Origin: Eucommia ulmoides
Lineage: Eukaryota; Streptophyta; Magnoliopsida; Garryales; Eucommiaceae
Reading direction: 5' to 3'
Length of the DNA stretch: 64,000 bases
NCBI GenBank assembly: GCA_016647705.1
Contig: CM028326.1
Coordinates: forward strand, 44,670,785 to 44,734,784
Positions within the stretch are counted from its first letter, which is position 1, and each line of letters opens with the position of its first letter. A model generated the notes under the pieces. That model saw nothing but the letters and a program-made list of their open reading frames with translations. It searched no databases and was not told where the DNA came from. A program made the position numbers and the translations under genes. Positions 1-62,808 of this stretch are shown one piece after another.

Positions 1-2130
1 ACCGGTTCATTTTAGAAAACTAGTTTCAGGGGATTTTCTAGGCACTGATTTTGGATCGTTCTATGGGAAACGATTTATTTTAAAAATGGAGTCACCAACT
101 ATCATTGAGTTAAATGGTGTGCTAGGTTACTGGAATTTTTAGAAAATAATTTTTAATTTTTAATGGCCCAAGTTTTTACTCAAAAGCAGTTGGTCTTTAC
201 TAGAGATTTCTTTTAATTTCAGGGGTTGGTTATTCTAAGGAAAAGTGTTGAGTACCCCAAGACACCTATCCGAAAAACGTACCTAAGTCTAAATAGATCT
301 TTATGTTTAAACAAGTCCAAGTAACTTCCTTCGATTTCGGTTAACACAATAATTCCTTTTTTTTTTTTTTTCTTTTTTAAAAGACAAGAAAACTTTATTA
401 TCTAATAGCAGCAACAGATAAAATAGATTAAATGAAAATATTTTATTTATTTTTAGTGCCGACCAAACATATAAAAGTTTCCGACATTTCCCAATTTTCA
501 CGGAGAATTAGGTTGAAATGTAGTTCACCACAAGATGATTTTATTTAAATGAACGACCGAACTCGCATAAGGTTTCCTACGTATCCTAGTCTTGACCAAG
601 AATTAGGTCAAAACATAGTTCACCACGACAGAATGATTTTATTTATTTTTATTTTTTATTTTCTTTTTCTTTTGTTTAAGATAAGATAAGAACATAACTA
701 GTACCAATGGTAAGTGGATATACACGTTTGATTTTGTCAAGAATACTCCAACCGAACTTACTTGCTTAGCAAGTTTAATGTTAACGTTTACTTTATTAGT
801 TCAAAAGATAAGAAAATATCTTATATAAGTCCTACTCGTAACTAAGAAGACAAAAATGGTTCTTAAGAAGGTGCACACTTATCCCCTAAGGAATATAGGT
901 CCTCATTTTATTTTGACTTTTAGGCACAAGGGTCTTGACAAAGTAATATGGATAAGGTGTCATTCCTCCTTGTAATTAAGAAAACGGAAACATTTCCAAA
1001 TTAGGTAAACATGTATCCCCAAAGGAATAGAGGTCCTCCCTTAATTCTGAATTTTAGCCACAAGGGGTCTAGACGTGATAGTATATATAGGGTGCCAATC
1101 TACAAGCCCGAGACTTAGTGCCGGGTTGTGATCTAGGCTAGTGCAAAAATGTAAATTTAAATTGTTAGTAGTTAGTAGTTCTTCATCGGAAGTTTTGTTT
1201 TATATTCATTAAAGTTCTATTTCACATGTTCTTGACAGAGCGAAAGATGTTATGTACAAATCATAGTGTTCTGGATGTTCTTGATGCGAACTATGATATT
1301 TACAATATATACATGATCTAAACTTCTAGTAACTACTCAAATATACTACATACAAGTAATATAAAGGTATTTAAGCAAAATAAAGCAAGACTTTGAGAGG
1401 ACTTACCTAACTTAGCGGAGTAGTATTTCCCTAAGTGTTTTTCCTTTTTCTCATTATTTAATATTTTTGTTTCTTCATGATTGTTCCTTTAGCAACTTCT
1501 TGAGATCTTGTTCTAAGAGTCTCAAGAACACCTCTTTGGAGCCTTTTTGGTAAGATTTATGTGTGTCTATGGAGTGTAATGCTTAGGAAATCCCAAGATT
1601 CGAGAGAAAAATTCGAGCCTAGAGAGAGAAGGGAAATGTCCAATGTTGTTTCTGAATGAAAATAGGCTGGTATTTATAGGCTCAAGAACCCTACGCATTG
1701 GGGAATCCATAGGTTCTCCCAGCCTGCTACACATGGTTTGTTTAGGCTAGCTATGACTATTTAATGTCATTTAATGCTAGGGTTAGTGCCATGTGATGAA
1801 GATTTACCTAGATTTCCTCGGCAATCATTAGATTTTGGTAATGATGACATGATCATTGCAAGATATTTGCCATTAATGATCATTTAATACTTTCATATGG
1901 GCCATTAAATGCTTATTTAATGTCCAATTTGATGTATTTCAGTTTGGTTTGCTTGGTAACTACTCATTAGTCTTGGTAATCTAGTTACTTGATTTAGAAA
2001 ATATCTTTTCCATTTAATACCATTTAATGCAAACATTGAATGTAGTCATTAATGGCAATTCAAGTCACTTAATATAATAAGTTTTAAGCACTTAATTACG
2101 TTGTCAAACATGCCCTAAACGTGCAATCAA
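1..2130 (-). mobile_element. Tat/Ogre-like LTR, truncated (minus strand)
   Basis: Read on the minus strand, this matches the later family-1 LTRs block by block. Near the window edge is the conserved stretch ending in ACACACCATTTAA and a GGTGACTCC-like core. Further in come the decayed hairpin cassette (about 553-621), the 'gaccccttgtggct' block (about 1050-1075), and a TATA box with leader near 1671. The LTR 3' end must lie roughly 100 bp outside the window. Its 5' end (TGTAGACACC) is not found; similarity fades near 2.1 kb where copia-like sequence starts. It is the most diverged LTR of this type here. The extent of the right edge is uncertain. Confidence 0.7.
1671..1678 (-). promoter_or_regulatory. 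LTR TATA box (minus strand)
   Basis: TATAAATA on the minus strand, followed by the CC..CCTATTTTCATTCA-type leader seen after the TATA boxes of the other Tat/Ogre-like LTRs. It is the expected core promoter of this truncated LTR. Confidence 0.5.
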
Positions 2131-4707: not shown

Positions 4708-6212
4708 TGTAGACACCGTATTTTGTCCAGCCCAATCACTGTCGGATCAAGTACAAGTTTAGATAAACTTTAAACTTGGATTTAAAGAGAATGAATTTCT
4801 ACCTGAGATCACACTATAAAATATACAAATACAATCAAAAACAAAAACACAAAAATATTAAATTTGACAAAATACAACTAAGTAAAAGTTTCAGGTCAAA
4901 CTCGAAATTCCTATGATTTAAGGAGGTCCAAAATAACTTTAATAAGGTTTGATTTTCATCAAATCATCTTTAGTATAGATAAATCTTAGTCACTAAACTT
5001 AAATTATAGGACATTCCAAACAATTAACTCGATTACCCCACCCCGACTTTGAAACATTTATTTTTCACTGAATCCTGTCAATAAAACACCAAAAACAAAA
5101 TTTTCTCTCAAGCATAATACATCACAAATTACCAAGAAAAAAATCCAAGACAACTTATTCAAAGCTTGGAAAGGTCATGACAAAGCCCTAAATCGCAAGC
5201 TATTTTAAGGATTAGGCTCGACTTGGATTTTTACCAAATTTAAATAGGCTTGAAAAACCAGCCTAGGCCCAAGAAATTAAGGGGCCTAGCCATCATTTAA
5301 GGCCCAAAAAACAGTCCTTATAATGACCAAGGAGCCTTCCTAGAAGGTTCCTACCAATTGGCTAAGGAAGGAAAACCAAGACACTTAGAGTACAACCAAC
5401 TATTATCGAAACTAAACCGATTCAGTTCACCACCTAAGTAAGGCATTCAATGGGCATTGAATGCCCATTCCATCAAGAATAAAATAATTGGGATGACATG
5501 TAAAGACCACATTCAAGGTATCGATATTTTTTAAGCAAAACATTTTAGAACCAACCGAAAACCTTGAATTGTGATAACCCATTATACGAAACCAAACCGG
5601 ATGAGTAGCTTCTAAGAAATGCATTAAATGTACATCCCATAAAGCATTAAATGATTGGTATGACATGGAATTTCTAGGTTCAAAGGATCTAGATATTTTT
5701 ACCAAAATATCTTAGGGTTAACTTCAAATTTGAAAACCAACCGTCAGTTACAAGGTAAGTTAACTCAATTCCATCCGAATCCAACCGTAGTTGTGCCCTC
5801 CAAGTTATGAATCATCACTTTGAATTAATTTCAAAGTAACACCTAAGGACTAGATGCAATGAACCTTGGATGCATTTATCGCGACCAAATCGAAATAGTG
5901 GATCCAACTACTACTTAGCCCCTAAACCGAACCGGATGCATCACATTAATTCATAAATGCACCCATGTGCAAAGAATTTAATTGGAGGAGAGCTAATGAT
6001 TGGCAATGATTTCCAATCATTAGTAATGATTGTCAATCATTACCAAATCTTTGACAATATTTAGTAACGATTACCGAATCCTTGAGAATCCAACCTTCCA
6101 TCCTAAATTCGTTCAAAGCAAAACAAGTTCAAAGCAGGAGAGAAAGTCCTCAAGGCCAAACATTACCCAAGAAATATCCTAGATATCGATTAATGCACAA
6201 GCATACCAGGAT

Positions 6213-6220
6213 TATAAATA
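6213..6220 (+). promoter_or_regulatory. LTR TATA box, copy A
   Basis: TATAAATA followed by 'gggagcctattttcat'; the homologous position carries TATAAATA at 32221 in copy B and TATAAACA at 60773 in copy D. About 1.5 kb of U3 lies upstream and about 2 kb of transcribed LTR downstream. Confidence 0.6.
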
Positions 6221-7375
6221 GGGAGCCTATTTTCATAAATTTCAAATCTTGAAGGCCTAGTTTCTCTGTCTAAAGTCTAGCAACTCTCTCAATTCCTTGG
6301 CCTCTCGAGCGGATTTTTCAAATAGCACGTCATTATTCTTCTAAAATCTGGTCGTGGAAGGTGTTCTTGAAGTTCTTAGAATAAGAACTTCAAGGATCGA
6401 TGATCACCAATCAACATCCAGCCAAGAAAAGCAAGGAGGAAAATGAGGTTATCTAATTAGGGATGACCACACACCCTAAGTAGGTTGTTCTTGTGTTCTT
6501 AGCTAAGTAATCAAGGAATCGATGACCATCAAGGGAGGAAAATGAGGTAAACACTTAGGGAAGACTACATTCCTTAAGTTGGTATGTTCCTATAAAACCC
6601 CCTAAGATTCTTGGTTAATCTTTTGTATATTGCTTGTATATAGTAGGGTCATGTAGATGATACACTTACTTTCATGTACATAACACATAAAACCCATAAA
6701 ACGACCAAACAAACTTTTTATTTTGTTAAGACCATCAAACAAACACCTAATCTTAACTATAACAACCAAATTAAGGTCAAATCATGCAAAATCATTCAAA
6801 GCATCTCAAGAACATCCAAAAACATTCAAGAGAATTCAAGAACATTCCAAGACATTCAAAAACATCATATCATCCAATAACATATTAAGAACATATGAGG
6901 ATTCGAACAAAACTATTATCACACCATGAGTTCTACATAGTCTATATGATACCCCCAAGAACATCGTATTTATTTTCTTTCTTTAGCTAAACAAAACACA
7001 CATATATACTTATATACTATACCGACAGACCCTTGTGGCTAAGATCTTGGGATAAAGGGGGAGCCCTATTCTATCGGGGATATGTGTGATTCTTCTACAA
7101 AAACCTTCCTATTTTCGTTTTTTATGAGTAAGACAGACATAAATATATGGTATTTATTTTTACTTTTAACTAATAACTCACACACAAACCCTAAACTAAC
7201 CAAAGCAAAAGAGTTTGTTTAAGGTTCTTGACAAAATCAAAGGGTTGTTACTTAGGTTGTTCACAACAAATACTAACTGATAATCAATCAAAACAAAATA
7301 AACAAACCAATCCTTAACTAAAACTAACTCAGCTTTAACCAAAAATAGTCCAATTTTTTCAAACATAACAAGACT

Positions 7376-7653
7376 AAACGACGTTCGACCTGATCTTTGG
7401 TAACTACCCAAAGTACGTAGGCAACCCATAAGGGTTCGGTTATACCTCTAATAATGAATCCAGTTTTCAACGAGACAAGGATGAATTATGTCTGACCTAA
7501 TCTTTTGTAACCACTCAAAGTATGTAGGCAAGCCATAAGGGTTCGATCACACTTCTAATAATAAACCATGTTCTTACCTAAACCAGAATGAAATATGTGA
7601 TGACCTGATTCTCATTTGAGATACATAGGTAACCTACCTGCGGGTTCGGTAGC
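7376..7653 (+). repeat. Hairpin cassette, three tandem units in LTR A
   Basis: Units at 7376-7443, 7483-7550 and 7590-7653 follow the pattern CTACGT - TGACC - TGAT - hairpin - ACGTAG - GCAACCC - loop - GGGTT - CGGTCA. Unit 1 has inner stem CTTTGG/CCAAAG and AACCC/GGGTT. Unit 2 is decayed. Unit 3 has TCTCA/TGAGA and replaces the ACGT/ACGT pairing with TATGT/ACATA. The triplet lies about 1.2 kb downstream of the TATA box, so it should be transcribed. Confidence 0.75.
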
Positions 7654-8273
7654 ATATCCAAACAACTTGTCTTAGTTTGCATTTCATTTAGCGTAACTTG
7701 CATATTTACATATATATCTGTATATAAACTGTTATTGGGTGTCATTGACTAGTAGTAGCTATAGTATTTACCTGTTTTCCATTAAATAATGTCAAAAATA
7801 CATAAAAAGAACAAAAAATTTAAAAACATGAATTAATCTTGTTTAAGTAAATCAAAGAAAACTTCTTGGATAGCGTTTAACAGTGAATATCTATTTAGAC
7901 CGAGATACCATCTTTGGACGAGTGTCTTAGGGTATCTAACACATTCCCCGAGCATAACTGACTCCTAAACTTAAAAAATATCTTTGGTACATAGACCTAT
8001 GGAAGTCAAAATATGGGCCATTTCAAAAGAAAAATGATTTTTTAAAGTCTCGGTAATCTAGCACATCATTTAACCCCATGCTAGGTGGCAACTCATTTTT
8101 TAACAAAAATCTCGGTCCAAGAAGGTTTTCAAAATCGACGCCTTGAAATCCCTTTGAAAACTATTTTCAAAATGAACGGATTTGGATGACTTAGAGAGGA
8201 AGGGATCAAACTTGTTTTCATTATCTTTCCGATTCTCTACTTTTTCCGCTATCAAAATTCGGGGTGTGTCAGC

Positions 8274-8293
8274 TGGCGGCTCCTCTAGGGAAC
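8274..8293 (+). promoter_or_regulatory. Primer binding site, copy A
   Basis: TGGCGGCTCCTCTAGGGAAC, two bases after the LTR end, is a slightly decayed form of TGGCGACTCCACTGGGGA. This site (reported as tRNA-Arg type) is typical of Ogre/Tat elements. Confidence 0.8.
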
Positions 8294-9000
8294 ATCTGTA
8301 AGACAGTCAGGCCTAGTTGGAGTCTAAATCCATATTCACTATTTAATAACATCCAAGCATTACGTCATTGATTTTAAAGATAAACAATTCCCTTCCAAAA
8401 ACATAACAGTAATAATAACATTAATAGCAATAATAATAAATAACAAAACAATACTAAGCATATCATTTCTTGTGTATATATCAATATGCATACATATCTA
8501 TTGTCTTTATTTACTGCATTTACATTTACTGTCTTTAAATACTGCATTTAAATATTGTCATTACATTTCTGCATTTACATTACTAGGTATTATCTCCAAT
8601 ACACGAGCACTCACTTTGCATTGCATATCATGATGAAAACCCAAGCTATAACCCTCTTAGGGATAGAGAGGCCGTTAGTAGGGGCTTTCATCGATGGTTT
8701 CATTGCACCGATCTAAGTCCTAAAAACCCTTAGGTTAGAAAGAGAAGTTTATAGAAGCAAGGCCGGGGGTTACATCCCCTGAGATTCAGCTACAAACCTC
8801 TTCTTGCTCGGACCACCAACCAAAGATAGATGTTCCCCTAGGGAGGATGGTGGATGTTTAAAGGTTTGGGAATTGAGCTATTTTTAGGATGCATTAGAAG
8901 AAAAGCCAAAACCACATATAGTGAGCCTAGGATAGAGGATAACTAGAACCCTGTTCTACTTAAGGCACTTATTTTGGAAAGAGATGTCATTTATTTTAAA
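8294..9000 (+). mobile_element. Family-1 leader (5' UTR), copy A
   Basis: This noncoding stretch is shared with 34369-35150 and 62809-63167: 'agtcaggcctagttggagtcta', a run of TTTACTGTCTTTAAATACTGCATTT repeats written in short AT-rich units, then 'ccctcttagggatagagagg' and a block ending 'ccctgtt(c/g)tacttaggacact'. It lies between primer site and gag, as in other Tat elements. No ORF is conserved across the copies. Confidence 0.7.
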
Positions 9001-13990: not shown

Positions 13991-14008
13991 TCTTAGAATC
14001 ACCAGACT

Positions 14009-14268
14009 GAAACTACGTTTGTCCTGATCCTTGGTGGATCACCAAGGTACGTAGGAAACCTAAGCGAGTTCAATTTTAATGAAGAATAAAGAGAGATATC
14101 AGCTTCATGATATTCTCTCAACCCTATACCAAGCATACCTCTAGAACAGTCCTTTGACACATTCCTTGCTATCGAAACAAATAGAGGACAACTAAGCCAG
14201 AATTATGCATGACCTGATCCTTGCTAACACTACCAAGGTACATAGGAAACCCATTGAGGCTCGGTCAT
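14009..14268 (+). repeat. Two hairpin cassettes outside an LTR
   Basis: Unit 14009-14072 has the strongest inner stem in the window, CCTTGGTG-gat-CACCAAGG, framed by CTACGT and ACGTAG. Unit 14200-14268 has CCTTG/CAAGG, framed by TATG/CATA, and an ATGACC/GGTCAT pairing. They lie within the copy-A block but far from its recognised LTR. Confidence 0.7.
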
Positions 14269-14529
14269 CCAACTATATGAACTCTCCCAGCTACGGACTG
14301 GAACGCATTCTCACAGTTTCCACTATCATACAAGGATTATAATTTAACTAGTAATTTCTAATTCCTCAGGATTAGAAGCTATGAAAGATGAAAAACCGCT
14401 AGAAATCTAGCAAACCTACATAGCAAGCTATGACTTCTGATTGTCCATGCTCTTCCTTCATCTTTGAGAAGATTGCTGAGAGAACAAACAATATAGGAAA
14501 GATAAAAGGTAAGAGAAATACCATCCAAT

Positions 14530-22460: not shown

Positions 22461-22466
22461 AGCTAG

Positions 22467-23373
22467 GAACTACGTGTCAACCTGATTCTCGGCAACGCTC
22501 GAGATACATAGGAAACCCTTGCGGGTTTGGTTGACAAATTTAAGCTCATCAAAAACCAGGAACTACATGTCAGCCTGATTCCTAGCAACGTCTAGGATAC
22601 GTAGAAAACCCTAACGGGTTTGGTTGACAAGATTAAGCCCAACCATGTGTGTTGAACTACGTGCCAACCTGATTCTCAGTTATCTGAGATACGTAGGTAA
22701 CATTTACAAAGTTTGGTCTTTCCCTTTAAACTAAAAACTATTAATGCGTATTGAACTAAGTGTCAACCAAATCCCATATGCAAAATAAGAATACCTAGTA
22801 GCATTTTGACTAGATCCTTGGCAGATCACCAAGGAACGTAAGAAACCCAAGTGGGTTCGGTTGAAATAAAAAGAAGAGACAAGTGTCATCTTTATGACAC
22901 TCTCTTATCTCTAGACCAAGGTGAATCTCTAGGAATAGTCTTTGGACTCTCCTAAGAAAGCTATATGCACTCTCCTTATTTACCAAACAATAGACGATGC
23001 TGAACTAGGAAACTACATCCAACCTAACTCCTAGCAAAGCCTGGGATACGTACGAAACCTTCTCTGGTCGCCATTAACAAAAATCCCATGTCAATGGGGA
23101 TTGAATCATGTCATTAATGCTAAAAATCCCAATGGAAGCGCATCAATAATTAAAATCCCATGCAAATTGAGAATGAATCATGGCAAACAATAAAATCCCC
23201 ACAGAGCTGTTCAATAATAAATTCCCTAATCAATTGGGATTGAAACCAAATATAAAAATAACCCAACAATCCAGATCTAACTATATTAGACTTTAACCAG
23301 CCAAGGAAGAATTAGATGTCGACCTAAGTCATGGTAAACACCAAAACACGTGAAACCTTTCTAGGTTGGGTCG
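22467..23373 (+). repeat. Six hairpin cassettes outside an LTR
   Basis: Units are at 22467-22535, 22560-22628, 22654-22718, 22797-22864, 23008-23070 and 23309-23373. Inner stems differ but stay paired: TCTCG/CGAGA, TCCTAG/CTAGGA, TCTCAG/CTGAGA, TCCTTGG/CCAAGGA, TCCTAG/CTGGGA (one G-T), TGGT/ACCA. The first two also pair AAACCC/GGGTTT and GTCAACC (or GTCAGCC)/GGTTGAC. A seventh, decayed unit may lie at about 23407-23475. This is the densest and best-preserved set in the window. Confidence 0.8.
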
Positions 23374-23501
23374 TTACCTTAAACAAAATTTCTCCATCCC
23401 TAGCAGACTATGCTTAGACTTGTCTTTTGTAAATCTCCAAGGTCCATATCAAACCCAAGTCAGTCCAGTTGAAGCTGGAGAGATGTCCCCATCATGACAT
23501 T

Positions 23502-23827: not shown

Positions 23828-24140
23828 TGTAGACACTCCATTTTCGCTAGTCCCAAATTTTTTATTGTAATTTATTTTATTTTATTAATTATTATTACTT
23901 TATTTTTTTTATTTAAAGAAAAGGAAAAACAAAAAGAGATATAAAAAAAATAGAAAAACAAAATAGAAAACGAAAAAAGAAAAAAGAAAAATAGAAATGA
24001 AAAAAAGTTCTATTTTCTTAGGCGAAATAGGATTAGTTTTTTTTTTTCCTTGCCACATTTTCCTTTTCCATGCGGGGTTAGGGTTAGGCTACCTAAGGTT
24101 TCATAGGGCTTTAGGGTTGTTTTTACTCTGTATCTTTCCC

Positions 24141-24148
24141 TATAAATA
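24141..24148 (+). promoter_or_regulatory. LTR TATA box, family 2
   Basis: TATAAATA preceded by 'ctttcccc'-like sequence and followed by GAACCCTCAT, about 310 bp into the LTR. Confidence 0.6.
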
Positions 24149-24174
24149 GAACCCTCATCTCATAGTTTAGATAA

Positions 24175-30728: not shown

Positions 30729-32220
30729 TGTAGACACCACATTTTGTCTCGCACAATCAGTGTCGGATGAGTACCAGTTTAGATAAAATTTAAAATTAGG
30801 TTTAAAAAGGAATGCATTTATACTTGAGATCCAACTGTATAATATACAAAAAATACCCAAAAACATGAGAAAACTCAAAATTGTTAAATTTGACTGAATT
30901 CAACTAAGTAAAAGTTTTGGGTCCACCTTGAAATTCCTACAATTTAAGGGGGTCTAAAATGACTTTATTAAAAGTTTATTTTCATTAAATCATATTTAGT
31001 ATAAATAAAAATTAGACACAACCCCTTAATTATAGGATATTTTAAATAATTACCTCGTTTACCTACATTGACTTTGAAACATTTACTGTCATTGAATTTT
31101 GTCTGTTTAACACCAAAAACATTAATTTAATTTATACATATTACATAAAATACTACCTGAAAAAATACAAGAGTCCTTGATCAAGTCTTGGAAAGATCAT
31201 GACAAATCCTAAATCAGCAAGGTGATTAAGGACTTGGGTTCGGTTTGGAATGACACTAATCCAAGTTATCTTAACAAACCACCCTAGGCCCAATGAATCA
31301 AGGGCATACCCATCATTAAAAGGTCAACAAAGGATATTTTAAATGATCAAATAAACCCTAGATATTCTCTGCACAAAATATCTAAGAAGGAAACTAAGGC
31401 ATATAGGAAGTAATCAACCTCTATCGAAACTAAACCGATTCGGTTCGCCACCTAAGTTAGGAATTCAATGTGAATTAAATGCCCATCCCATCAAGAATTA
31501 ATTTTTTGGGATGACATGGATAGGACACATTAGAGGTATCAATATATTTTGATCAAAATATCTTAGAGTTAATCGAAAACCTTGAAATGTGACTACCCGT
31601 TATCGACACCAAACCAAATCGGTTTGCTACCTAGCCCATGCATTTAAAGAGAATTAAATTCACATACCATAAAGAATTAATTTCTTAGGGATGACATAGA
31701 ATGGGTGGATGCATTGAATCTAGATATTTTCTCAAAATATCTTGGGGTTAACTAGAAACCTTAAAATCCAACAATCGATTACCAAGAAAACCAACCCGAT
31801 TCGATCCAAAACCAAACGGATGCATGTTGACCAAGTAATGAGTTATAATAGTTCATTGAACTCCAAGTGACGCAGTGAGACCATGTTCAATGCACCTTGA
31901 AAGCATTAATAACAACTAAACCGAAATATTGAAACTAATCGATACTTAGCCCCTAAACCAAACTGGAAGTGTCACATCAAGACATTAGTGCACCCATGTG
32001 CAACCAATAGGATGAGAGGAGCAGTAATGATTGGAAATCATTACCAAATCTAGGAAAAGATTTGGTAATGATTAAAAATCTTTTGAGATATTGCCTTGCA
32101 CCTAAAATTCATTCAAAGCTAAACGAGATCAATTCAAGATAGAAAGTCCCCTAGGAAAAACACACCCCAAGAAAGATGCTGGAATAGACTATGGATGGAT
32201 AAGTATGTGGGCTCCCATCC

Positions 32221-32228
32221 TATAAATA
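32221..32228 (+). promoter_or_regulatory. LTR TATA box, copy B
   Basis: TATAAATA at the position homologous to 6213 in copy A, followed by GGTGCGGGGGTTCTCA. Confidence 0.6.
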
Positions 32229-33045
32229 TAGGTGCGGGGGTTCTCATATTTCAAGACTTCAAGTCCTAGCTTCTCTCTCAAAAACCCGAGCCAAGCCTCG
32301 GGTTATAGGATTCTTCAGCAAGATTCTTGAATAACACATTGTTATTCTATTGAAATCTGGCCCCGGAGGGTGTTATTGAGATTCTTAAAGCAAGAATTCA
32401 AGAGAAAGACGGTCACCAATCAAAGCCAAGCCAAGAGACTCAAGGAGGAAAGGGAGATAACAACTTAGGGAGGACTACTTTACCTAAGTAGGGTGTTCTT
32501 CAGGTTCTTGGAGAAAGAACTCAAGAGGCTGACGGTGATCGATCGAGTTCCAACCAAGAAGATCAAGAAGGAGATGAAGGTTATTGTTTAGGGATAGACC
32601 ACTCCCCTAAACTAGGTATGTGCCATGAGGTTCCTTGATCTTGTCTTAAAATTTCATATATTAAACTTGTACATATCATAATCATGTAGTTCATACACTT
32701 TAATTTCATGTACATAACTCACATAACCCATAATTAACCAAATAATCTTTAATTTTTTATATAATCATTAAATCATGTCCAAATCATTCCAAGCACCTCA
32801 AGAACATCCGAGAATAAGTTAAGAACATGTAAGGACCCAAATTATCCAAGAACATGTTAAGAACATGTGATGATTCAAACATAACATCTATCACACCATG
32901 AGTTGTGGATAGTCTCTACGATTATCTCATGAACACTTCAAACCGACTCTTTACTAACTTTTAATCTAACTATATACTGTTAATGACCGGATTTACTTTT
33001 TGCTAAACTTTAAGATCATAGAAAGGATGGTGTATGGACTGGCAC

Positions 33046-33046
33046 C

Positions 33047-33077
<31 letters not shown>

Positions 33078-33078
33078 T
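33046..33078. repeat. (TA)n(CA)n microsatellite
   Basis: About 9 TA then 8 CA units, just upstream of the 'cattgacagacctttgtagct' block of the LTR. Copy C carries an (AC)n tract at the same relative place. Confidence 0.85.
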
Positions 33079-33404
33079 ACATTGACAGACCTTTGTAGCT
33101 AACAAAATCCGGGATAACAGGTGGGCCTCTATTCCTTTAGGAATATGTGTGATTCTTCTTCAAAAACCTTCCAATTTTTCTTAGTTATGAGAAAGACTAG
33201 CATAAATATATGGTATTTCTTTTAAATTTTAATTAACAAACTCACACACTAACACTAACTAACCTAAAACAAAAGAGTTCGGTGAAGGTGTTCTTGATAA
33301 AATCAAATAGGTCATGTCCATATCATGTTGTGATTGATGTTGTTCACAACTAATAAACAATTAAAATTATCTCAAGCCAACCTAGATTTCAACTTAACAT
33401 GAAT

Positions 33405-33684
33405 GAACTACGTGATGACTTGATCTTTGGTTACCCGCCAAAGTATGTAGGCAACCCACATAAGGGTTCGGTCACCTATAATAACATAAACCATATACTT
33501 TAACCTAACATAAATGAACTATATAAAAACTTGTTTCTCATTAATCCGAGATACATACGCAACCCATGTGCGGGTTTAGGTCGCACATCCAAATAATTTA
33601 GTTTAGTTTGTATGCTGGAACTACATGTCGACCTGATTCTTTGTGAAAGCAAGGATACGTAGGCGACCTATATATGGTTTGGTC
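33405..33684 (+). repeat. Hairpin cassette, three tandem units in LTR B
   Basis: Units at 33405-33476 (CTTTGG/CCAAAG, CTACGT/ATGTAG with one G-T, AACCC/GGGTT), 33516-33584 (TCTC/GAGA, AACCC/GGGTT) and 33618-33684 (CTTTG/CAAGG with one wobble, GACC/GGTC). Same relative place as in copies A, C and D. Confidence 0.75.
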
Positions 33685-34348
33685 TCTTAAAAATAACAAA
33701 AATATTTGCATTTCATATAGCTTGCATATTTATATTCTTATCTCTTATAAACTGCTATTAGGTTGTTACTGCGTAGAATAGTATAGTATTTATTGCTTTT
33801 ATTATGTTAAAAAAAAAAAATTCTAGTTGTAGTTTCATAATAGATAATATTACTATTTAAATCACGTTAAAAATACATAAAAAAAGGAAAAACTTTAAAA
33901 AAAGGAATTGTTTTGTTTAAGGAAATCAAAGAAAGTTACTCGAGTAATGTTTAACAGTGAATATTCATTTAGACTAAGGTACCGTTTATGGATGGGTGTC
34001 TTGGGGTGCATAAAACCTTCCTGAGCATAATCGATTCCTCAATTTTAAGAACATCTTTTGTAAATAGACCTAGTGAAGTCAAAACATGGGCCATTTCAAA
34101 GTAAATTTAATTTCCAAAACTCCTAGAGACCTAACACACCATTTAACCTTATTCTAGGTGGTGACTCCCTTTTTTAACATAAAATCTAGGCCCAATAAAT
34201 TTTTCAAAACCGACGGCTAGAAAAGCCCTTAAAAAACTATTTTCAAAATAAACGAATTTCGATGACTTAGAGAGGGGAGGAATGAAACTCGTTTCCTATT
34301 CTTCTCGATCACTATTTCTTCCACTATCAAAATTTGAGGTGTTTCAGC

Positions 34349-34368
34349 TGGCGACTTCGCTAGAGACC
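34349..34368 (+). promoter_or_regulatory. Primer binding site, copy B
   Basis: TGGCGACTTCGCTAGAGACC, two bases after the LTR end; same type as copies A and D. Confidence 0.8.
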
Positions 34369-35150
34369 TCATAAGAGGGTCAGGCGTAGTCGAAGTCTAA
34401 ATTTATATTCACGGTTAAATAAAAACCCGAGAAATATGACTTTTATTTTTAAATATAAATAATTCCCTTCCAAAAATAAATAATGAATAATCATAATAAA
34501 TAAATAAAAAATTAAAAAATAATAATATTATAATAATAAAATAATAATAATAATAAATAATAATGACAATAATACAATTTTTTCCCTATCTATATTAGCA
34601 TGCATGCATATTTACTGTTTACTACATTTATGTTACTGTCTTTCAATACTGTATTTTAAGTATTGTCTTTAATGTTCTTGCATTTCATTACTATATACTC
34701 TCTCTAACGCACTCATGCTCGCTTTGCATTACATATCGTATCAAAAACCAAAGTTGTAACCCTCTTAAGGATAGAGAGGACGGTAGTAGGAGTTGACGTC
34801 AGTGATTTCATCACACAAAACTAAGCCCTGAAAACCCTTAGGATAGAAAGAGGCATTGGTAGAAGCAAGGCCGGAGGGTCTCTCCCCCCGGGATCCAGCT
34901 ACGAAACTTGATTTGCTCAGACCACCAACCAACGATGGATGTTCCCCCGGGGAGGACGCCGAGGGTTTGAAGGTCTGGGAGCCGAAGCTTTTTAGGATGT
35001 ACTAGTAAAAAAGTCATAACCTTATATAGTGAGCCTGGGATAAAGGATAACCAAAACCCTGTTGTACTTAGGACACTATCTTGGAGAGAGACATGTACAT
35101 TGATGTCAGTATATAACTACCCTGAAATCTTGCAAAAGAGTACATCTAGG
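34369..35150 (+). mobile_element. Family-1 leader (5' UTR), copy B
   Basis: Colinear with 8294-9000 ('gagggtcaggcgtagtcgaagtcta', 'cctcttaaggatagagagg', 'ccctgttgtacttaggacac'). It contains an AAT-rich low-complexity stretch at about 34490-34570. It breaks off near 35.15 kb against minus-strand sequence of another element. Confidence 0.7.
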
Positions 35151-40902: not shown

Positions 40903-41522
40903 TGACGCACCCCGAATGTTTATACCAGAAGAAGTAGAGAATCAGGAAGAGGATGAAAATAAGTTTCATCCCTTCCTCTCTAAGTCTTCCAAATCTATTC
41001 ATTTTTTAAATGGTTTTTCAAGGGTTTTTCTTGGCGTTGGTTTTGAAAAACCTCTTGGGCCAAATATTTTGTTAAAAATGGAGTCGCCACCAAGCATAGG
41101 GTTAAATGGTGGGCTAGGTCACTAGGATTTTTGGAAATTCATTTTTCCTTTTAAAATAGCCCGTGTTTTGACTTCCATAGGTCTATTTACCGAACATATT
41201 CTTTAAGTTCGGGAGTTGGTTATGCTTGGGAAAGGTTTTATGCACCCCAAGACACCCGTCCATAAACAGTAGCTTGGTCTAAATAGATATTCACTATTAA
41301 ACACTATCTAAATAGTTTTCTTTGATTACTTAAACAAAAATAATTCTATTTTTAAAAGTTTTTCGTCTTTTCATGTTATTTTGCATGATATAATGGATAG
41401 CAGGTAAATACTATAGCTAATACTAGTCAACGACACCCAATAATATTTTATATATAGACAAAAATGTAAATATGCAAGTTATACTAAATGAAATGCAAAC
41501 TAAGACTAAATTGTTTGGATAT

Positions 41523-41803
41523 GCGACCGAAGCCACACATGGGTTGCATACATATCTCAAATAGGAATCAGGTATTTATGTAGTTTGTTCTGGTTAGGAT
41601 AAAAACTATTTTTTATTGTTTATGGTGACCGAACCCATATCATGTGGTGCCTACGTACTTTGGGTTGTTACTGAAGATCAGGTCAAACGTAGTTCATTTT
41701 TGTTAGGTTAAGGTATATGATTTGCTATTAAAGGTGTGACTGAACCCTTATGGGTTGCCTACATACTTTGGGTAGTTACCAAAGATCAAGTTAAATGTAG
41801 TTC
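41523..41803 (-). repeat. Hairpin cassette, three tandem units in LTR C
   Basis: Minus-strand units at 41523-41590, 41624-41695 and 41734-41803. The third has CTACAT/ATGTAG, a clean double change from CTACGT/ACGTAG, with CTTTGG/CCAAAG and AACCC/GGGTT. The second has CTACGT/ACGTAG and TGACC/GGTCA but a weakened inner stem. The first has TACAT/ATGTA. Confidence 0.75.
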
Positions 41804-42273
41804 ATTCTTTTACATTTGAAAGTAGGGACAGGTTTAGTTAAAGACTGGTTTGGTTTTAATAATAAAACCAGTTGGTTTTAGTTGATTTTGGTTGTGAACA
41901 ACCTGAATCACAACCTTAGTTAGTTATTAACTGTTTGAAATTGTGAACAATCTAAATCACAACCTTAATTATGTTTATTGTTAATTGTTTTTAAGTCGTG
42001 AACAACCTAAATCACAACATGATATGTATATAATACTTTTTGATTTTGTCAAGAACACCTTAAGAAAACTCTTTTGTTTTGATTAGTTAGTGTTAGTGTG
42101 TGATTTTTTAGTTGAAAAAGGAAAATAAATATCATAAATTTATGCTAGTCCTACTCGTAACTAAGGAAAATTGGAAGGTTTCTAAAGAAAAATCACACAT
42201 ATCCCCGAAGGAATAAAGACCCTTCATTTATCCTAAGTTCTTAGCGATAAGGGTCTATTGGTGTAGTAATAAG

Positions 42274-42275
<2 letters not shown>

Positions 42276-42309
<34 letters not shown>
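42276..42309. repeat. (AC)n microsatellite
   Basis: About 17 AC units in LTR C, at the position of the TA/CA tract of LTR B. Confidence 0.9.
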
Positions 42310-42315
<6 letters not shown>

Positions 42316-42526
42316 GGTACCAGTTCACAAGCCAACCTGACTGTAATCTTGACGACCAACCTGGCTGTGATCTTAATGTTTAGCAGAAAGTAAATCTGTT
42401 TATTAGTAGTTGTATAGTTAGTATTAACATTTAGTAAAGAGTTGGTGTAAAGTTTTTGAGAGAATCGAAGAGAGTATGTACAACTCGTAGTGTGATTGAA
42501 GTTTTATTTGAATCTTCACATGATGT

Positions 42527-42950
42527 TCTCGGATGATTTGAGTCCTCACATATTCTTAACTCATTCTCGGACATTCTTGAGATGCTTGGAATGGTTTTGT
42601 ATGATTTGAACATAGTTTGACTATTATAGTTGAAACTTATGTGTGTGTTTGGTTGTTTTGACAAAATCAAGTGTTCGTTTGGTTGTTATGACAAAATTAA
42701 GATCACTTTTGGTAACCATTCCCATCCCATATTCTTAACTCGTTCTCAGATGATTTGAGTCCTTACATATTCTTAACTCGTTCTCGAACATTCTTGAGAT
42801 GCTTGGAATGGTTTTGTATGATTTGAACATGGTTCGACTGTTATAGTTAAAAATTATGTGTGTGTTTGGTTGTTTTGACAAATTCAAGTGTTTGATTGGT
42901 TGTTATGACAAAATTAAGATCGTTTTTGGTAACCATTCCCATCCCATCCC
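42527..42950. repeat. ~215-bp tandem duplication with transposon end
   Basis: 42527-42730 is repeated at 42731-42950 ('ttcttgagatgcttggaatggttttgtatgatttgaaca' and surroundings, quoted in part). The first copy ends with the first 28 or so bases of the adjacent PIF/Harbinger-type element (TTAAGATCACTTTTGGTAACC), so the duplication happened after that insertion. Confidence 0.8.
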
Positions 42951-43876
42951 ATTCCCAGATTTTTGGGATTTCTGTTTGGGCATAGCTTTGGGTAAAACTA
43001 TTTATTATCCATCCCATCCCAAAAACTAGAATTCATTCCCAAAATTGTGAAGGCCACGAGAAACAAAAAAAATTTGTTTCTCATAATTCCCATCCCATTC
43101 CCAAACCAAAAATAGACACGACCATCATTATTTGCATTGTTAAAATGAGCCCTCCTTCAACTTTTTTTAGCTCCATTTTTTTTTCTATTTCTTTTTCCAT
43201 TTTGTGAAGATGGCCATCATCTTCTTTATGGTTGCAGTAGTAGTCATCGTTTATCTTCTTCTTCAATGATGTCTTCATCGCCATTACTATGGTTGCTGCA
43301 GTCGTCATTGCTCGATCTCTATCTCCATCGTTGGGTTTAGAGTTCACGATGAAATCAATTTCGTTGCTCGATCTCCTTCTTCATCTTCTGTCGCCATTGG
43401 AATCGATTTCAATTTCGTTGTCCATCGTTAGTCGTTCGTCATCACTAGCATCGATTTTAATTTCATCGTTTGTCAATTTCGATTCCATCGTCCGTCGTTC
43501 ATTGCTCGTCCTTCCCTAGAAATCAATTCCTATTTCCTCGATTTTTATTTAGGGTTTACGAAAATTGATTTCAATTAAGGGGATGAAATTTATTTCTATT
43601 TCATCGATTTCGATTGGGGATTAGGATTTCAATTTCAATTTCGATTGATGTTTAGGATTCGATTGCTTGATGATTTCTTGATTGTAGTTTAGGGTTTGTT
43701 CTTGATTTCTAGGATAATATCATTACCAAACGCGATTCTGTTCCTAGAACCCAAAAATAAAATTGTCATTACCAAATGCGATTCTGCTCCCAAGAAAAAA
43801 ACAAAGTTCTCATCACATCCTATCCCATCCCATCCCACTTGAAAGGGATGGGATGAAAACAGTTACCAAATAGGGG
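42917..43876. mobile_element. PIF/Harbinger-type non-autonomous element
   Basis: 960 bp flanked by TTA on both sides (42914-42916, 43877-43879). Terminal inverted repeats share TTTGGTAAC and then CATCCCATCCC (the right end reads CCCCTATTTGGTAACTG in complement). Related LTRs have the uninterrupted target AAAATTAAGTGTTTG, which supports the insertion. A TTA duplication and GGTAAC ends fit PIF/Harbinger. The interior is TCx-repeat-rich with stretches around 'catcgttt' and lacks any transposase; its open frames (43081-43347, 43289-43519) are low-complexity. Confidence 0.7.
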
Positions 43877-44583
43877 TTAAGTGTTTGTTTGGTTGTTTTT
43901 GGGTTTTATGTGTTATGTACATGAAATTAAAGTGTGTTAACTACATGGTTATCCTACGTACAAGCAACACATAAAAGTTTACATCAAGATCATCGTTTTT
44001 TTTTTTTTTTTTTTTTTAAGAAACATGCCTACTTAGTGGATGTAGTCTTCCCTAAGTGATTATCTCTTTTTCTTCCTTGATCTTCTTGGTAAGAAGTTGA
44101 TCAGTGATCGTCGATCCATTGAGTTCTTAGCCAAGAACCTTAAGAACACCCTACTTAGGGGATGTGATCGTCCCTATGTATCTATATCATTTTCTTCCTT
44201 GATCATCTTCGCTCGGTATTGATCGATGGTCATCGTTCTTCTGAGTTCTTGCTCCAAGAACCTCATGAACAACTTCCAGGATCAAATTTAAGTAGAATAA
44301 CTGTAAGACCCCGATCTTTGATATACGTATAATTTTACTCGTATTTCAAAATATTTCGGATATAACGGGGGTAGATTTTGTCAACTATTGTATGATTTAA
44401 AAATTTAGGGGTCAAATTATAATTTTTATACACATTAAAATTGAGAATGGGTTTAATTAATTTCCTAACTAAAAAGAAGGGGGGCTTAGTGTAATTAAAA
44501 CAAAGATATATATATATATATAAGATCGTGTGCCGTGATCTCAGCTGAAGGATCAAGAAAATGGAAGAGGGAAGTCGGTGGCT

Positions 44584-44584
<1 letters not shown>

Positions 44585-44636
<52 letters not shown>
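44585..44636. repeat. (TA)n microsatellite
   Basis: About 25 TA units in the 5' LTR; the 3' LTR has only about 8 at 51004-51020, showing post-insertion length change. Confidence 0.9.
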
Positions 44637-44639
<3 letters not shown>

Positions 44640-45662
44640 CACAATTATACACACGCAAGAGAAGGGAGAAGCAGACATAGAGAAAATGAAATAGAAAAAG
44701 AAAAAAAAACAGAGAGAAAGTAGCGTCGGCGGTGGGTTTGTGGGTCTCGTCAGTGTGCGTCCGTTCGTCCGGCGATGTGGGTGTCGGTAGGTTGTCGATC
44801 GTCAGTGATGTCGGTGGTGTGATGCTTGTTCGTCGGCAATTTTGTGGGTTGCCGGTGATGCGCCATTCAGTCCGATGGGAATATGTGTGTGATCGTTGTT
44901 GATCGGTCTGGTTGTATAGGTGGGAGTTGTGAACATCGTTCGTGTTCAGGTGCGTTCTGGTTGTCCGGTCCAAAGGTGAGGGTGTATGTTTCGTGGGTGT
45001 TGCCGTCGGTCGGTTTAGTCGGTGAGTGGGTGCCTGTCCGGTGGTGTGTGCGCGTCGAAGAGGTTGCGGGGGTGTGTGCTCGGTTGTTCGCTGTCGGTGT
45101 GTGCGTGTATTTGTCCCCGTCGTTCGGCATGGGTATGGGTGTGTGGGCTGTCCCGTGATCGCCGATGGTAAGGTTGAGTGTGTGTGTGTGTGGCGGCGGC
45201 TGCTGAAATCAGAAATAGTAGATGCAAACAGAGAAGGAAGAAGAAGAAAAGGAAAAAAAAAAAAAAAAAAGAGAAAAAGAGAGGAAGAAAAAGGAAAAAA
45301 ATACGCAAACCACCCCAGTAGAATCCAAAAACCCAATTCACGGCTGGCGGGAGATTTGGAATTAGTTCGCAGGAACCGGAGTACCAATAGGGAATATGCA
45401 GTTAAAGTTTTCGAAAACGGATAATTAGGTGAGTGTACTGTCTTCTTACCAAACTATTTTCTATGTATATATATGATGACATATGTGTTTACTTACACTG
45501 TACGATTTCATAAATGATATGGATCAAGCAGGTTTTTGGGGTGAGTTGGTAAAATGAACTTCCGGGGAACTATGTTGGTTTCTAAAAAGAAGGATTAAAA
45601 ATAATTTTTGTTGGATATGGGTGGTACTTTTAAAAAGGAGAGTGAAAAACATGATTTTGGAA

Positions 45663-45790
45663 ATTCTCCCCGAAACGGGTGTGGTTTATATTCTCCCCGT
45701 AAGGGGTGTGGATTTTTCCCCAAGAGATGTGGATGTTTCTCCCCGTAAGGGGTGTGGATTATATTTCTCCCAAAAACGGGGTGTGGATAT
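45663..45790 (+). repeat. Minisatellite CTCCCCGTAAGGGG in Tekay-like LTR
   Basis: Five units of about 28 bp, each holding CTCCCCG..(A)GGGGTGTGGAT, an inverted repeat CCCC...GGGG followed by GTGTGG. It is repeated in the 3' LTR at 52054-52181 with the same order. Confidence 0.8.
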
Positions 45791-46376
45791 TTCGTAGGAA
45801 GGCATTCCTACGGATGTTACGGTACCGTTGCAACTCTCGATCGTGAGGTCAAAACGATCACTATAGCTAGCCAGTGTGTGTTGTGGTAGAGGGGTGTGTT
45901 TGAGGTGTGTGTGAGATGTAGTGTTTTACTTATATTGGGTAATTTATTATTGATTATGGTATTTGGAAACTTAATTATACTGCTTTACTTTCACTGCTTA
46001 TTTGATATTGGAGATTTTACCAACTGTGTGGTGGATATATATATTTACGCTTGATCCATTTAAATGTGGTATTATTTAGAATGTATTATTGTTATGAAAA
46101 AAATGTTATTACTAAGAAGGCAGTACACTCGCAGGTGAATCTTTTAGGAGACAGTCCCCTACTGGCATTAGGTGAAGTCATCTGGGAATAATTTGACTTG
46201 AGCTGTCAGAGGTGAACCATGTGAAAAACAAAGATTATGTATGTCTTGGTTATTGAATTGTATAGTAAAGTATCCAATTTGTTTATGTATAAGAAGTAAT
46301 GTATGTAATAGGTGATGTCTCGTTGTCGTCACGCCGGCCCTGGGATGACGGGTGTCCGGGGCTGGCCATGACAATT

Positions 46377-46388
46377 TGGTATCAGAGC
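46377..46388 (+). promoter_or_regulatory. Tekay-like primer binding site
   Basis: TGGTATCAGAGC, complementary to the 3' end of initiator tRNA-Met, three bases after the LTR. Confidence 0.9.
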
Positions 46389-47420
46389 CTAGGTTATAGG
46401 TTCTGTAGACTTGCTAGTTGTGGTGTCAGTAGAGGACCATGAGATAGGAAGACGTGCCAGTCGTTTAGTCAGTAGGGGACATAAGATAGGATGTCGATAG
46501 GTGAGTTCGGCACGTAACTGGTAGGTATTTCATTATATTAATTAGTGCATTGGCATAGTACATGATTGGTTGTCTTATTGGTAATTAGTGGGTGCGATAA
46601 AGCTGTGATTTGCTTTGTAGGTGGTTTGGGTTGTGTGGTATTCTGGGTAGTGGTAATAGGTGGATCATGATTTTGGGATACGAGTAGTTGGGAATGTTAG
46701 AATATAACTGATAAACAATCATATGGGTATTACTAGATGTTGGGATCAGTTATCGATAACACCTAATATATAGCTGTTAAAACAATTGATAGTATAGTAG
46801 AACACACTTAAGTTGGAATATAAAATGACATCCAAGATGAGTATAAAACTGCCTTTTTGGGCAAGACTAAGGGAATCTTAAATATATATATATATATATA
46901 TATATCAAAAAGGGAGTTTGAAATTAGTTGGAATTAAGCATATGAGAAACTGTGGCAATGTTAGAAATGATTTAATTTGGTAGTACATTCTAGGATTGGC
47001 CTGCAGGCAGAGTAAAAAATTTGTGAAATTAGTAAATACAACAAACTTACTAATGAATGATATGTAGAAGATAGCCGAGAAATTGTAAGTTTGTGATAAT
47101 GTAAGTGTGTAAAACCATAGTCCGTGTCGTAGGAGTTGTCGGTAGTTTGTTTCAAAAATAAGTTATCTTCCGAATCTTAGAAGAGGTAAAGTTTGTATTT
47201 TGGGAGATGTAATCATTACCCCAGTCAATTTGATTTTTGGTTCGGGAGGTCAAAAGTTGTTGGAAGAATGTCAGGGATACCTCACGCCGGTGATGGGCAC
47301 CAGTCCAAATAACGTTTAGACGACGGATACTCCAGTAGTGAGAGATTGTCTTGATGCATGTCCCAACGGAATTGTCAGGGTTGCCAGTAAACACTATCGA
47401 GTTACTTCTAGGACCTGTTC
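46389..47420 (+). other. Unreadable Tekay-like interior (expected gag/protease)
   Basis: About 1 kb where gag and protease should lie (they need about 1.5 kb or more), but every frame is full of stops and no CCHC knuckle or D-S/T-G site is visible. Deletion plus decay is the likely reason. A TA repeat lies at 46880-46903. Confidence 0.5.
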
Positions 47421-48330
47421 TTATATAAATTCTACCCCATCATAGAGCATATACCGAGTTGCCGAAATTGAAAGATCTGTTAACCGGCGATTATAGTAGA
47501 GACCCAGTGTTTCTCTCTATGGAAATCTGATGTTATTAGGAAGAGTGTTCGGGTAAAATTATTATACCCATCGTGTAGGATTGATGATTTGTTCGATTAG
47601 CTGCAAAAAAAAAAAAAACAGGGTGTTTTCCCAAATAGATTTTCGATTAGTATAGCACCAGTTGGAGATCAGAGATAGTGATGTGGTGAAATCGACATTC
47701 CGGTCGAGAGTAGAAGAAAGTATGCAAAGCATCTCCAGACTATGTTGTTGACGATTTCCAGAGAAGCGATTGCATGCCAAATTCAATAAATAAGAGTTGG
47801 GTTGGATCGAGTGGTAAATTTGGGACATGTGATCTTGGGAGATGGCATTCAGGTGAATCCAAAGAAAATCGAAGTTGTGATTTAATGGGAAAGGCTGAAA
47901 AGTGTGACTGAAGTTCAAAACTTTTTGGGGATTGGCGGGTTACTATTATCGATTGGTGCAGGGATTCTTTGTTACAGCCGTTTCGTTGATCTGATTAAAC
48001 CGCAAGAAAGCTAAAATCGAAAAGACTGATAAATGTAAGCGTTATTACCCGACGCACGAATTGGAGTTGGCGATAATTGTGATTGCCTTGAAGTTGTGGA
48101 GACATTATCTGCATGACAAGACTTATGGGATATACACCGACCACCAGAGTTCGAAATAATTGCTTATTCAAAAATGAGCTAAATCTGAGGTAGAGACGTT
48201 GAATAAAGTTGATCAAAGACTATAGTTGTACCATCTATTATTATTCGGGAAAGATCAATGTTGTAACAAATACTTCGAGTCGGAAATCGATAAGTTTGGT
48301 TGCGCACATCCAAGTTGTTCATATTAATTT
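47421..48330 (+). pseudogene. Tekay-like RT-RNase H remnant with deleted core
   Basis: At about 47425-47480: HRAYTELPKLKDLL (RT entry, normally PYRMAPxELxELKxQL). At 47650-47705: HQLEIRDSDVVKSTFRSR, the segment after DLRSGY. This runs straight into VEESMQSISRL and HAKFNK, which normally lie after the catalytic YxDD/FxDD motif, so the RT active site is deleted. Then LGHVILGDGIQVNPKKIEVV and FLGIGG (47820-47940) and RNase H at about 48030-48170 (RYYPTHELELAIIVIALKLW, YTDHQSS). Several stops are present. It cannot encode active RT. Confidence 0.8.
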
Positions 48331-48439
48331 ATGTGTTGAATTGAGACCTTTATGAGTTTAGTGGAGGGTTAGTCAGATGACAATGCTGTTTGAGATTTTG
48401 ATTTTTGAAAACCAACATTGATTGACCATGTTGTAAAAG

Positions 48440-50697: not shown

Positions 50698-50708
50698 AGG
50701 AGGGAAGA
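50698..50708 (+). promoter_or_regulatory. Tekay-like polypurine tract
   Basis: AGGAGGGAAGA, one base before the 3' LTR. Confidence 0.85.
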
Positions 50709-50709
50709 T

Positions 50710-52766: not shown

Positions 52767-52881
52767 ATAACTGCGTGTTATTTAAGAAATATGCTTGAGA
52801 AGACTAGAAACTGAGAGAGTTGCTCGAGTTTAGAGAGAGAAGGTAGGCATTCAAGGCTTCTAATTTATGAAAACAAACCCC

Positions 52882-52889
52882 TATTTATA
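52882..52889 (-). promoter_or_regulatory. LTR TATA box, copy C (minus)
   Basis: TATAAATA on the minus strand followed by GGGGTTTGTTTTCAT, homologous to 6213 and 32221. It shows that 52772-53656 is the promoter part of LTR C. Confidence 0.6.
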
Positions 52890-62786: not shown

Positions 62787-62788
62787 GC

Positions 62789-62808
62789 TGGCGACTCCAC
62801 TGGGGAAA
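62789..62808 (+). promoter_or_regulatory. Primer binding site, copy D
   Basis: TGGCGACTCCACTGGGGAAA, the consensus-like form for this family, two bases after the LTR end. Confidence 0.85.

Follow-up and report, generated by a model that had tools for sequence, protein, structure and literature searches.

A repeated cassette with crossing stems in probable Tat/Ogre-type retrotransposons of Eucommia ulmoides, a candidate structured RNA family

We describe a cassette of about 75 nt, present in 23 copies in a 64-kb stretch of the Eucommia ulmoides genome (the window, the whole stretch of DNA that was analysed), whose arms pair into four stems, two of which cross. The cassette very likely carries a fold that has been kept by selection, with P2 the stem of which we are least sure, and it probably belongs to LTR retrotransposons of the Tat/Ogre kind. 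We regard it as a candidate for a new family of structured RNA, carried by repeats of a kind already known. Our overall reading, which we advance tentatively and with somewhat less than even confidence, is that of a conserved pseudoknotted cis-acting RNA of a Tat/Ogre-like transcript that helps this transcript in export or in escape from decay.

Cassette copies in the window and the genome

A profile HMM built from 15 hand-picked window copies detected the 23 cassettes at E ≤ 0.033, and the identical 23, of which 18 lie on the plus strand and 5 on the minus strand, were recovered at E ≤ 0.021 by a covariance model whose training alignment includes window copies (Table 1). The first-pass annotation of this DNA had counted at least 20 copies, a number that both models bear out, and the stems it had quoted at 7395, 7610, 14029, 22487, 22580, 22674, 22814 and 41.7 kb (minus strand) are all present as described. 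The segment it had singled out, 22467–23373, covers six copies and ends within a few bases of them; a strongly decayed seventh follows. An extra covariance-model match at 59615–59664 (E = 0.21) was discarded.

The core ACGTAGNCAACCC, allowing up to 2 mismatches, matches the window 18 times, where 2.3 matches are expected and 18 were reached in 0 of 100 shuffles. In the genome (946,670,599 bases searched, or 946.7 Mb), the exact 13-mer core ACGTAGGCAACCC occurs 1,711 times (879 + 832) versus 12 times (8 + 4) for the reversed control. The pattern TGACCTGATN{36,50}GGTCA (TGACC..GGTCA) occurs 1,336 times (685 + 651) versus 25 (7 + 18) for its control, and the corresponding TGACC..GGTTG pattern 240 times versus 46. 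Because just 1 of the 23 window copies holds the exact core, the total number of copies in the genome should far exceed these exact-core counts. The present-day copies are decayed.

Table 1. Cassettes and associated LTR features in the 64-kb window
Feature	Positions	Strand	Evidence or remark
Cassette, F type, P2 arms GTCAACC/GGTTGAC	22464..22543	+	covariance model E 7.7e-20
Cassette, F type	22557..22636	+	covariance model E 2.1e-17
Cassette, F type	22651..22729	+	covariance model E 9.2e-18
Cassette, F type	22793..22873	+	covariance model E 5.2e-10
Cassette, F type, decayed	23007..23080	+	covariance model E 1.7e-6
Cassette, F type, decayed	23306..23383	+	covariance model E 1.7e-8
Cassette, F type, strongly decayed	23402..23481	+	covariance model E 0.021; profile HMM E 0.033
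Cassette, F-related	14007..14086	+	covariance model E 9.6e-16
Cassette, F-related	14197..14277	+	covariance model E 1.5e-13
Cassette, LTR (E) type, array unit 1	7373..7452	+	covariance model E 4.2e-20
Cassette, E type, array unit 2	7480..7559	+	covariance model E 3e-15
Cassette, E type, array unit 3	7587..7662	+	covariance model E 1.5e-15
Cassette, E type	33402..33484	+	covariance model E 1.4e-21
Cassette, E type, decayed	33513..33593	+	covariance model E 1.9e-10
Cassette, E type	33615..33695	+	covariance model E 3.4e-17
Cassette, E type	61827..61906	+	covariance model E 1.7e-19
Cassette, E type	61936..62015	+	covariance model E 3.4e-15
Cassette, E type	62047..62128	+	covariance model E 4.1e-16
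Cassette, E type	41727..41806	-	covariance model E 1.2e-22
Cassette, E type	41616..41698	-	covariance model E 1e-18
Cassette, E type	41514..41589	-	covariance model E 3.6e-10
Cassette	544..624	-	covariance model E 4.9e-18
Cassette	450..529	-	covariance model E 1.2e-12
LTR-like unit E1, start TGTAGACACC, holds cassettes 7373-7662	4708..8990	+	coordinates not a mapped LTR end
LTR-like unit E2, holds cassettes 33402-33695	30729..35091	+	coordinates not a mapped LTR end
LTR-like unit E3, holds cassettes 61827-62128	59492..63167	+	next LTR start adjoins at 63168
LTR-like unit E4, holds cassettes 41514-41806	40903..53561	-	split by nested repeat pair ~44302-52768
LTR start TGTAGACACT, 347 bases 3' of last F-type cassette	23828..24150	+	stretch only, not whole LTR
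TATAAATAG	24141	+	313 bases into LTR start of 23828

Stem architecture

The 6-bp stem P1 (CTACGT/ACGTAG) encloses the hairpin P3, P4 is a hairpin with arms ACCC/GGGT, and P2 (TGACC/GGTCA) spans P4. The arms follow one another in the order P1, P2, P3, P3', P1', P4, P4', P2'. Since CTACGT is thus followed by TGACC, a hairpin, ACGTAG, a second hairpin and finally GGTCA, P2 crosses P1 and the cassette has the topology of a nested pseudoknot, a point absent from the first-pass annotation. P2 occurs in several arm variants, of which GTCAACC/GGTTGAC, TTAACC/GGTTAA, TTGACC/GGTCAA and TTCGACC/GGTCGAA are chosen examples.

Several unpaired positions are conserved as well. P1 is preceded by AA, each A being present in 150 of 158 aligned copies; the A adjoining P1 faces a G in 139 of the 158, and the first position of P1 is a C in 134. 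The four-nucleotide word TGAT between P2 and P3 is conserved and unpaired, a single nucleotide (T in 149 copies of 158) separates P3' from P1', and a conserved GCAA follows P1'. The gap from P4 to P2' measures one to three nucleotides; the column before P2' is C in 92 and T in 56 of the 158 copies, and the next column is G in 111 and A in 42.

Place of the cassettes in the LTR elements

Cassettes of the E type mostly come in groups of two to four, about 100–110 bases apart. Their arrays lie about 1.9–2.7 kb after the start TGTAGACACC in most loci that show both; the exceptions are loci L010, L045 and L048, with a start-to-array distance of about 0.5–1.6 kb, and L025, where the nearest start has the opposite orientation. 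F-type and other cassettes are spaced from 83 to several hundred bases. A further group of cassettes, spaced about 140–430 bases and showing ATATGTAGG and ACCCTTTGGGT-like words, was seen in L143, L144, L145 and L148.

In six places (23828 in the window, and loci L010, L023, L028, L031 and L045), an LTR start follows about 190–1,090 bases downstream of the cassettes in the same orientation. Tandem non-coding units in apparent sense orientation upstream of an LTR start, by which Tat/Ogre 3'UTR arrays are recognized, are found at six places. In 7 of 17 contexts, L010, L023, L028 and L031 among them, the LTR start is immediately preceded by the polypurine-like word GACAAAGAGGGGCAG or a decayed form of it; in the remaining 10 of the 17, the flanks look unrelated by eye. 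Position and composition suggest that GACAAAGAGGGGCAG is the polypurine tract, in which case the cassettes would be read in the sense direction of the element. Both locations of the cassette, like its orientation, are read from such sequence features and from position.

We had considered the 3.9-kb unit as a whole short element; this was dropped, as the stretch beyond its end is shared in 10 loci or units, in nine of them directly after the end. In L045, the unit behind the LTR start has E-type cassettes and continues into a conserved stretch, and the unit would therefore be part of an LTR that measures 4.3 kb or more. From position 63168 onward, and in L115, another LTR start directly adjoins the end of E3; the sequence that follows is a second version of the unit with an insertion, arranged in tandem. 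A tandem array at 58615–59496 with periods of 58, 68 and 99 bp is apparently unrelated to the cassette and ends about where E3 starts. Nested in E4 is a direct repeat pair (44302–46375 and 50710–52768, about 2.07 kb, 94% identical) that is probably a younger LTR element.

Protein fragments at 28.3–30.6 kb presumably resemble Tat/Ogre pol. In ten protein fragments that were searched, no Pfam family scored over its cut-off, and the Tat/Ogre label is therefore probable rather than proven. The stretch 10597–13400 holds short open frames, two of which were searched and had no Pfam match. For Transposase_28 (PF04195), a mark of Retand elements, 150 of 2,444 candidates in the genome were scored matches; these are not tied to the cassette elements, and on this count elements of the Retand type may be frequent in the plant.

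The place of the E-type arrays bears on a reading at the level of DNA, in which the cassette would be a repeated enhancer or protein-binding site, its ACGT core lying upstream of the LTR promoter and its inverted arms serving as palindromic sites. Repeated enhancers are common in the U3 region of retroviruses and ACGT is the core recognized by plant bZIP proteins, both of which count in favor of this reading, as does the presence, in 8 of 15 copies, of a TATA-like word 50–63 bases beyond the E-type array; two further copies have one at about 30 and 106 bases. We nevertheless consider it unlikely: the arms of P3 switch among three pair types and yet still pair, which is needless for a binding site, and the crossing arms of P1 and P2 do not form a simple palindrome.

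A second alternative, to which we give a similarly small chance, sees the cassette as a selfish copying unit whose fold pauses reverse transcriptase, such that template switching duplicates folded units and pairing is maintained by a bias in duplication. The arrays do vary in copy number and spacing (about 83–109 nt in tight arrays), and abnormal strand transfer was hypothesised as the origin of Tat/Ogre 3'UTR arrays by Macas 2009, as cited in PMC7004042. However, many copies are solitary or hundreds of bases apart, and pausing alone leaves the conserved unpaired AA before P1, TGAT and GCAA unexplained.

Covariation of the stems

Three sets of copies, aligned by MAFFT without regard to structure, were used for covariation analysis. 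The first comprised 158 copies from 44 sources (40 loci of 5–6 kb around exact cores, three 4-kb loci and the window) that matched at E ≤ 1e-3 and covered at least 45 model positions. Loci L001–L008 were excluded because of overlap with other loci, and copies running off a locus edge or below the coverage limit were dropped. With L115 and eight F-type loci added at E ≤ 0.05, the second set had 216 copies from 53 sources; the third, extended by sixteen more loci at E ≤ 0.01, had 252 copies from 69 sources. These sixteen loci had been picked by patterns that, in one or two copies of each locus, fix TGACC with GGTCA (13 loci) or GGTTG (3 loci), and since they were thus selected on the arms of P2, the cleaner test for this stem is that with 216 copies. 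All copies stem from one genome and are mutually related, and sampling centred on exact matches to the core.

As a statistic for each stem we summed, over its pairs, the Watson–Crick cells beyond the expectation from column composition, and compared the sum with 1000 alignments simulated on a FastTree tree with per-column composition and rate. With 216 copies, z values of 4.5 for P1, 3.9 for P2, 13.0 for P3 and 5.0 for P4 were obtained, each reached in 0 of 1000 simulations. When wobble pairs were counted as well, the values were 4.0, 3.6, 12.2 and 5.1, reached in 1, 0, 0 and 0 of 1000. A tree based on the flanks yielded 4.5, 4.2, 13.7 and 5.4, each reached in 0 of 1000; with wobbles, the P2 value was reached in 1 of 1000 on this tree. 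The 252-copy set gave 4.7, 4.0, 12.0 and 3.9 (0 of 1000 each; P4 with wobbles, 10 of 1000), and the 158-copy set 3.9, 3.0, 10.3 and 3.4, reached in 0, 1, 0 and 1 of 300 simulations. The signal of P2 comes from the two outer pairs of its five, the inner three varying little.

The register of the stems was assessed on 120 of the 158 copies. In the proposed register 85.5% of the cells are paired, versus 22–40% when the partners are slid by 1–3 columns and 80.5% in shuffles, and 247 cells are double-changed versus 122.5 in shuffles. Two of the five measures were no higher than in shuffles in these copies, namely pairs changed on both sides (14 versus 13.9) and further pair types (38 versus 37.3). 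In nine loci outside the training set, which are not independent because they carry orthologues of training copies, a pair-aware covariance model outscored a sequence-only model at 52 of the 57 places matched by both, with a mean gain of 8.2 bits; the sequence-only model listed 69 matches there versus 63 with pairs.

Paralogues were also grouped, and 17 groups of at least three copies account for 204 of the 216 copies; 10 smaller groups were excluded, and majority bases were taken for each arm separately, with ties settled arbitrarily. Counting Watson–Crick and wobble pairs, the majorities pair at 88 of 99 positions in P1, 81 of 85 in P2, 95 of 100 in P3 and 73 of 82 in P4. One-sided Fisher tests, run only for pairs with two pair types and across 17 groups that are themselves related, gave p values of 0.0004, 0.0006, 0.005, 0.053, 0.07 and 0.13 for six pairs of P3, 0.008 for one pair of P4, 0.036 and 0.14 for two pairs of P1, and 0.11 and 0.23 for two pairs of P2, so that covariation of P2 is weak at the group level (best pair, p = 0.11). 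At columns 29/42 of P3, nine groups have GC, four AT and two TA, which includes pair types that differ by transversion.

Pair by pair, the signal is confined to P3. In a G-test of single pairs against a tree null, E < 0.05 was reached by pairs 24–44 and 25–43 of P3 only; the E value was 0.55 for P3 pair 28–40, 2.0 for P4 pair 59–68, 14 for the best pair of P1 and 72 for the best among the five core pairs of P2, and the third and fourth ranks went to column pairs that do not belong to the structure. When all five-pair helices were scanned blindly, only P3 and registers overlapping it exceeded the maximum of the null, P1, P2 and P4 being significant as named stems only. Significant covarying pairs in each of the four stems were the criterion set by the first-pass annotation; all four stems covary at the helix level, and single pairs are significant in P3 only.

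It had also taken double changes that keep pairs in decayed repeats as a sign of selection on structure. Covariation at the helix level supports this; several of the changes cited lie at CpG sites, however, and may be independent decay. Among 1,709 differences from group majorities, C>T (408) and G>A (431) are the commonest, and the exchange of CTACGT/ACGTAG for CTACAT/ATGTAG, a change at a CpG site, is therefore weak as a single example. Absence of any selection on structure, with related dead repeats and parallel CpG decay mimicking covariation, would fit this dominance of C>T and G>A, the failure of most single-pair tests and the high rank of unrelated column pairs. We still judge it quite improbable, given that simulations matched in column composition and rates reach the helix values in 0–1 of 1000 cases and that the changes in P3, for which decay was already an unlikely cause, include transversion pair types.

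A selected fold leaves the matter of the strand. Wobbles are not preferred: G-U accounts for 335 and A-C for 419 of 4,651 cells, and with A-C mismatches outnumbering G-U, the sense RNA is not marked as the selected strand. Folding energies of the 216 copies are mildly below those of shuffles and equal by strand (mean z −0.98 for sense and −0.90 for antisense), and hence do not discriminate. Of the earlier description as a conserved structured RNA, the structure stands, with four stems above the null on two trees and a clear register, and the RNA strand finds no support in the wobble counts. Its position in the element would make RNA of the sense strand the working form.

Comparison with known RNA families

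A known Rfam family, which the first-pass annotation had suggested looking for, did not emerge: at the curators' gathering thresholds, 0 families, hammerhead included, were found in the whole window. Lax Rfam scans gave 1 weak match in the window segment 61780–62180 and 3 in six loci, with E values from 0.63 to 4.5 that we take as chance. Hammerhead ribozymes, exoribonuclease-resistant RNAs and C/D snoRNAs were set aside by their characteristic motifs and the lack of Rfam gathering matches in the window. Pattern searches of viral and genome contigs produced no convincing profile match (best E of 0.011 among 63 loci, and none at E ≤ 1 among 20), and blastn against plasmids and phages produced none. 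One text match of the 10-mer TACGTAGGCA in the literature proved to be an actin primer.

HDV-like self-cleaving ribozymes have the same topology, a nested pseudoknot whose strands run P1-P2-P3-P1'-P4-P2', which in the cassette follows from stems that covary at the helix level. In these ribozymes, P1 has about 7 bp and starts with the G at the cleavage site, and P4 and P2' are joined by an A-rich linker that holds the catalytic C. That the cassette is such a ribozyme or its relic is scarcely credible despite the equal strand order: its P1 has 6 bp and usually begins with C, a TGAT spacer separates P2 from P3, the gap between P3' and P1' is one nucleotide, no A-rich linker precedes P2', no HDV family matched up to E = 10 in the window array at 61780–62180 and six loci, and a 3'UTR with several self-cleaving units would presumably cut the genomic RNA.

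Proposed role and relation to known elements

In the reading that we prefer, a cis-acting RNA of the retrotransposon transcript, several diverged cassettes would sit in the non-coding 3' region, upstream of the polypurine tract and the 3' LTR, and small arrays would also occur inside the long LTR, apparently in sense orientation. The cassette would then fold within the sense genomic RNA, close to its 3' end, and act in cis. By analogy with the constitutive transport elements that some retroviruses carry just upstream of the polypurine tract and that export unspliced RNA, we conjecture that such a multi-copy 3' element might help a long, partly intron-containing genomic RNA to leave the nucleus or to escape decay. 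This guess is prompted by the place of the cassettes, their repeat number and the expected need of Ogre to export intron-holding RNA; an Ogre intron is described as being removed by splicing from a subset of the transcripts only (PMC6317226). Wider still, and in our view doubtful, is the possibility that the cassette represents a new class of pseudoknotted cis-RNA, HDV-like in order but not HDV, in Tat/Ogre-type elements of flowering plants, with many units in the 3' region and the LTR, serving export, protection or packaging of genomic RNA and forming the core behind hypervariable 3'UTR repeats.

Tat/Ogre elements are abundant in the genomes of many plants, and the tandem repeats at their 3' end are described as seeding satellite DNA (PMC7004042). 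If the cassette is what we propose, a fold kept by compensatory changes would give a reason why these repeats exist, and a 75-nt RNA would be a testable handle, open to probing, to mutation of each arm in turn and to searches in other species. In plants, where covariation is described as generally modest in a survey of 130 genomes (PMC12218528), it would also stand as a structured RNA with strong covariation; the words retrotransposon, repeat and pseudoknot are absent from the main text of that survey.

Structured RNAs in LTR elements have precedents. Retrozymes, plant LTR elements that carry hammerhead ribozymes (PMC4918200), share with the cassette elements, as we read them, the presence of a small structured RNA; the difference is that Rfam finds no hammerhead in the window. 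Retroviral constitutive transport elements, such as those of MPMV and MER11, are structured RNAs between the last gene and the polypurine tract or U3, the MER11 element being placed between env and the polypurine tract, just upstream of the latter (PMC11379458). The cassette may be likened to them by place, not by sequence or fold.

The closest relatives by description are the hypervariable tandem repeats that are common in the 3'UTRs of the Tat lineage, Ogre included, and that seed satellites (PMC7004042). About half of recently active Retand elements are said to have such arrays, the origin and function of which are called unknown in PMC11963269; the words secondary structure, hairpin and pseudoknot are absent from its main text, and we found no account of a conserved pseudoknot in Tat/Ogre 3'UTR repeats in the open-access literature searched. 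Like these repeats (Macas 2009, as cited in PMC7004042; Retand, PMC11963269), the cassette is tandem, non-coding and probably located between pol and the 3' LTR. They are described there as sequence-variable and family-specific, whereas the fold of the cassette is common to several repeat groups and occurs also inside the presumed LTR. Coffea_sat11, an 82-bp repeat of a coffee Gypsy/TAT element (Cintra 2022, via PMC13013560 and PMC11963269), resembles the cassette in unit length and in its 3' non-coding place, a comparison by description only, and may be the same unit.
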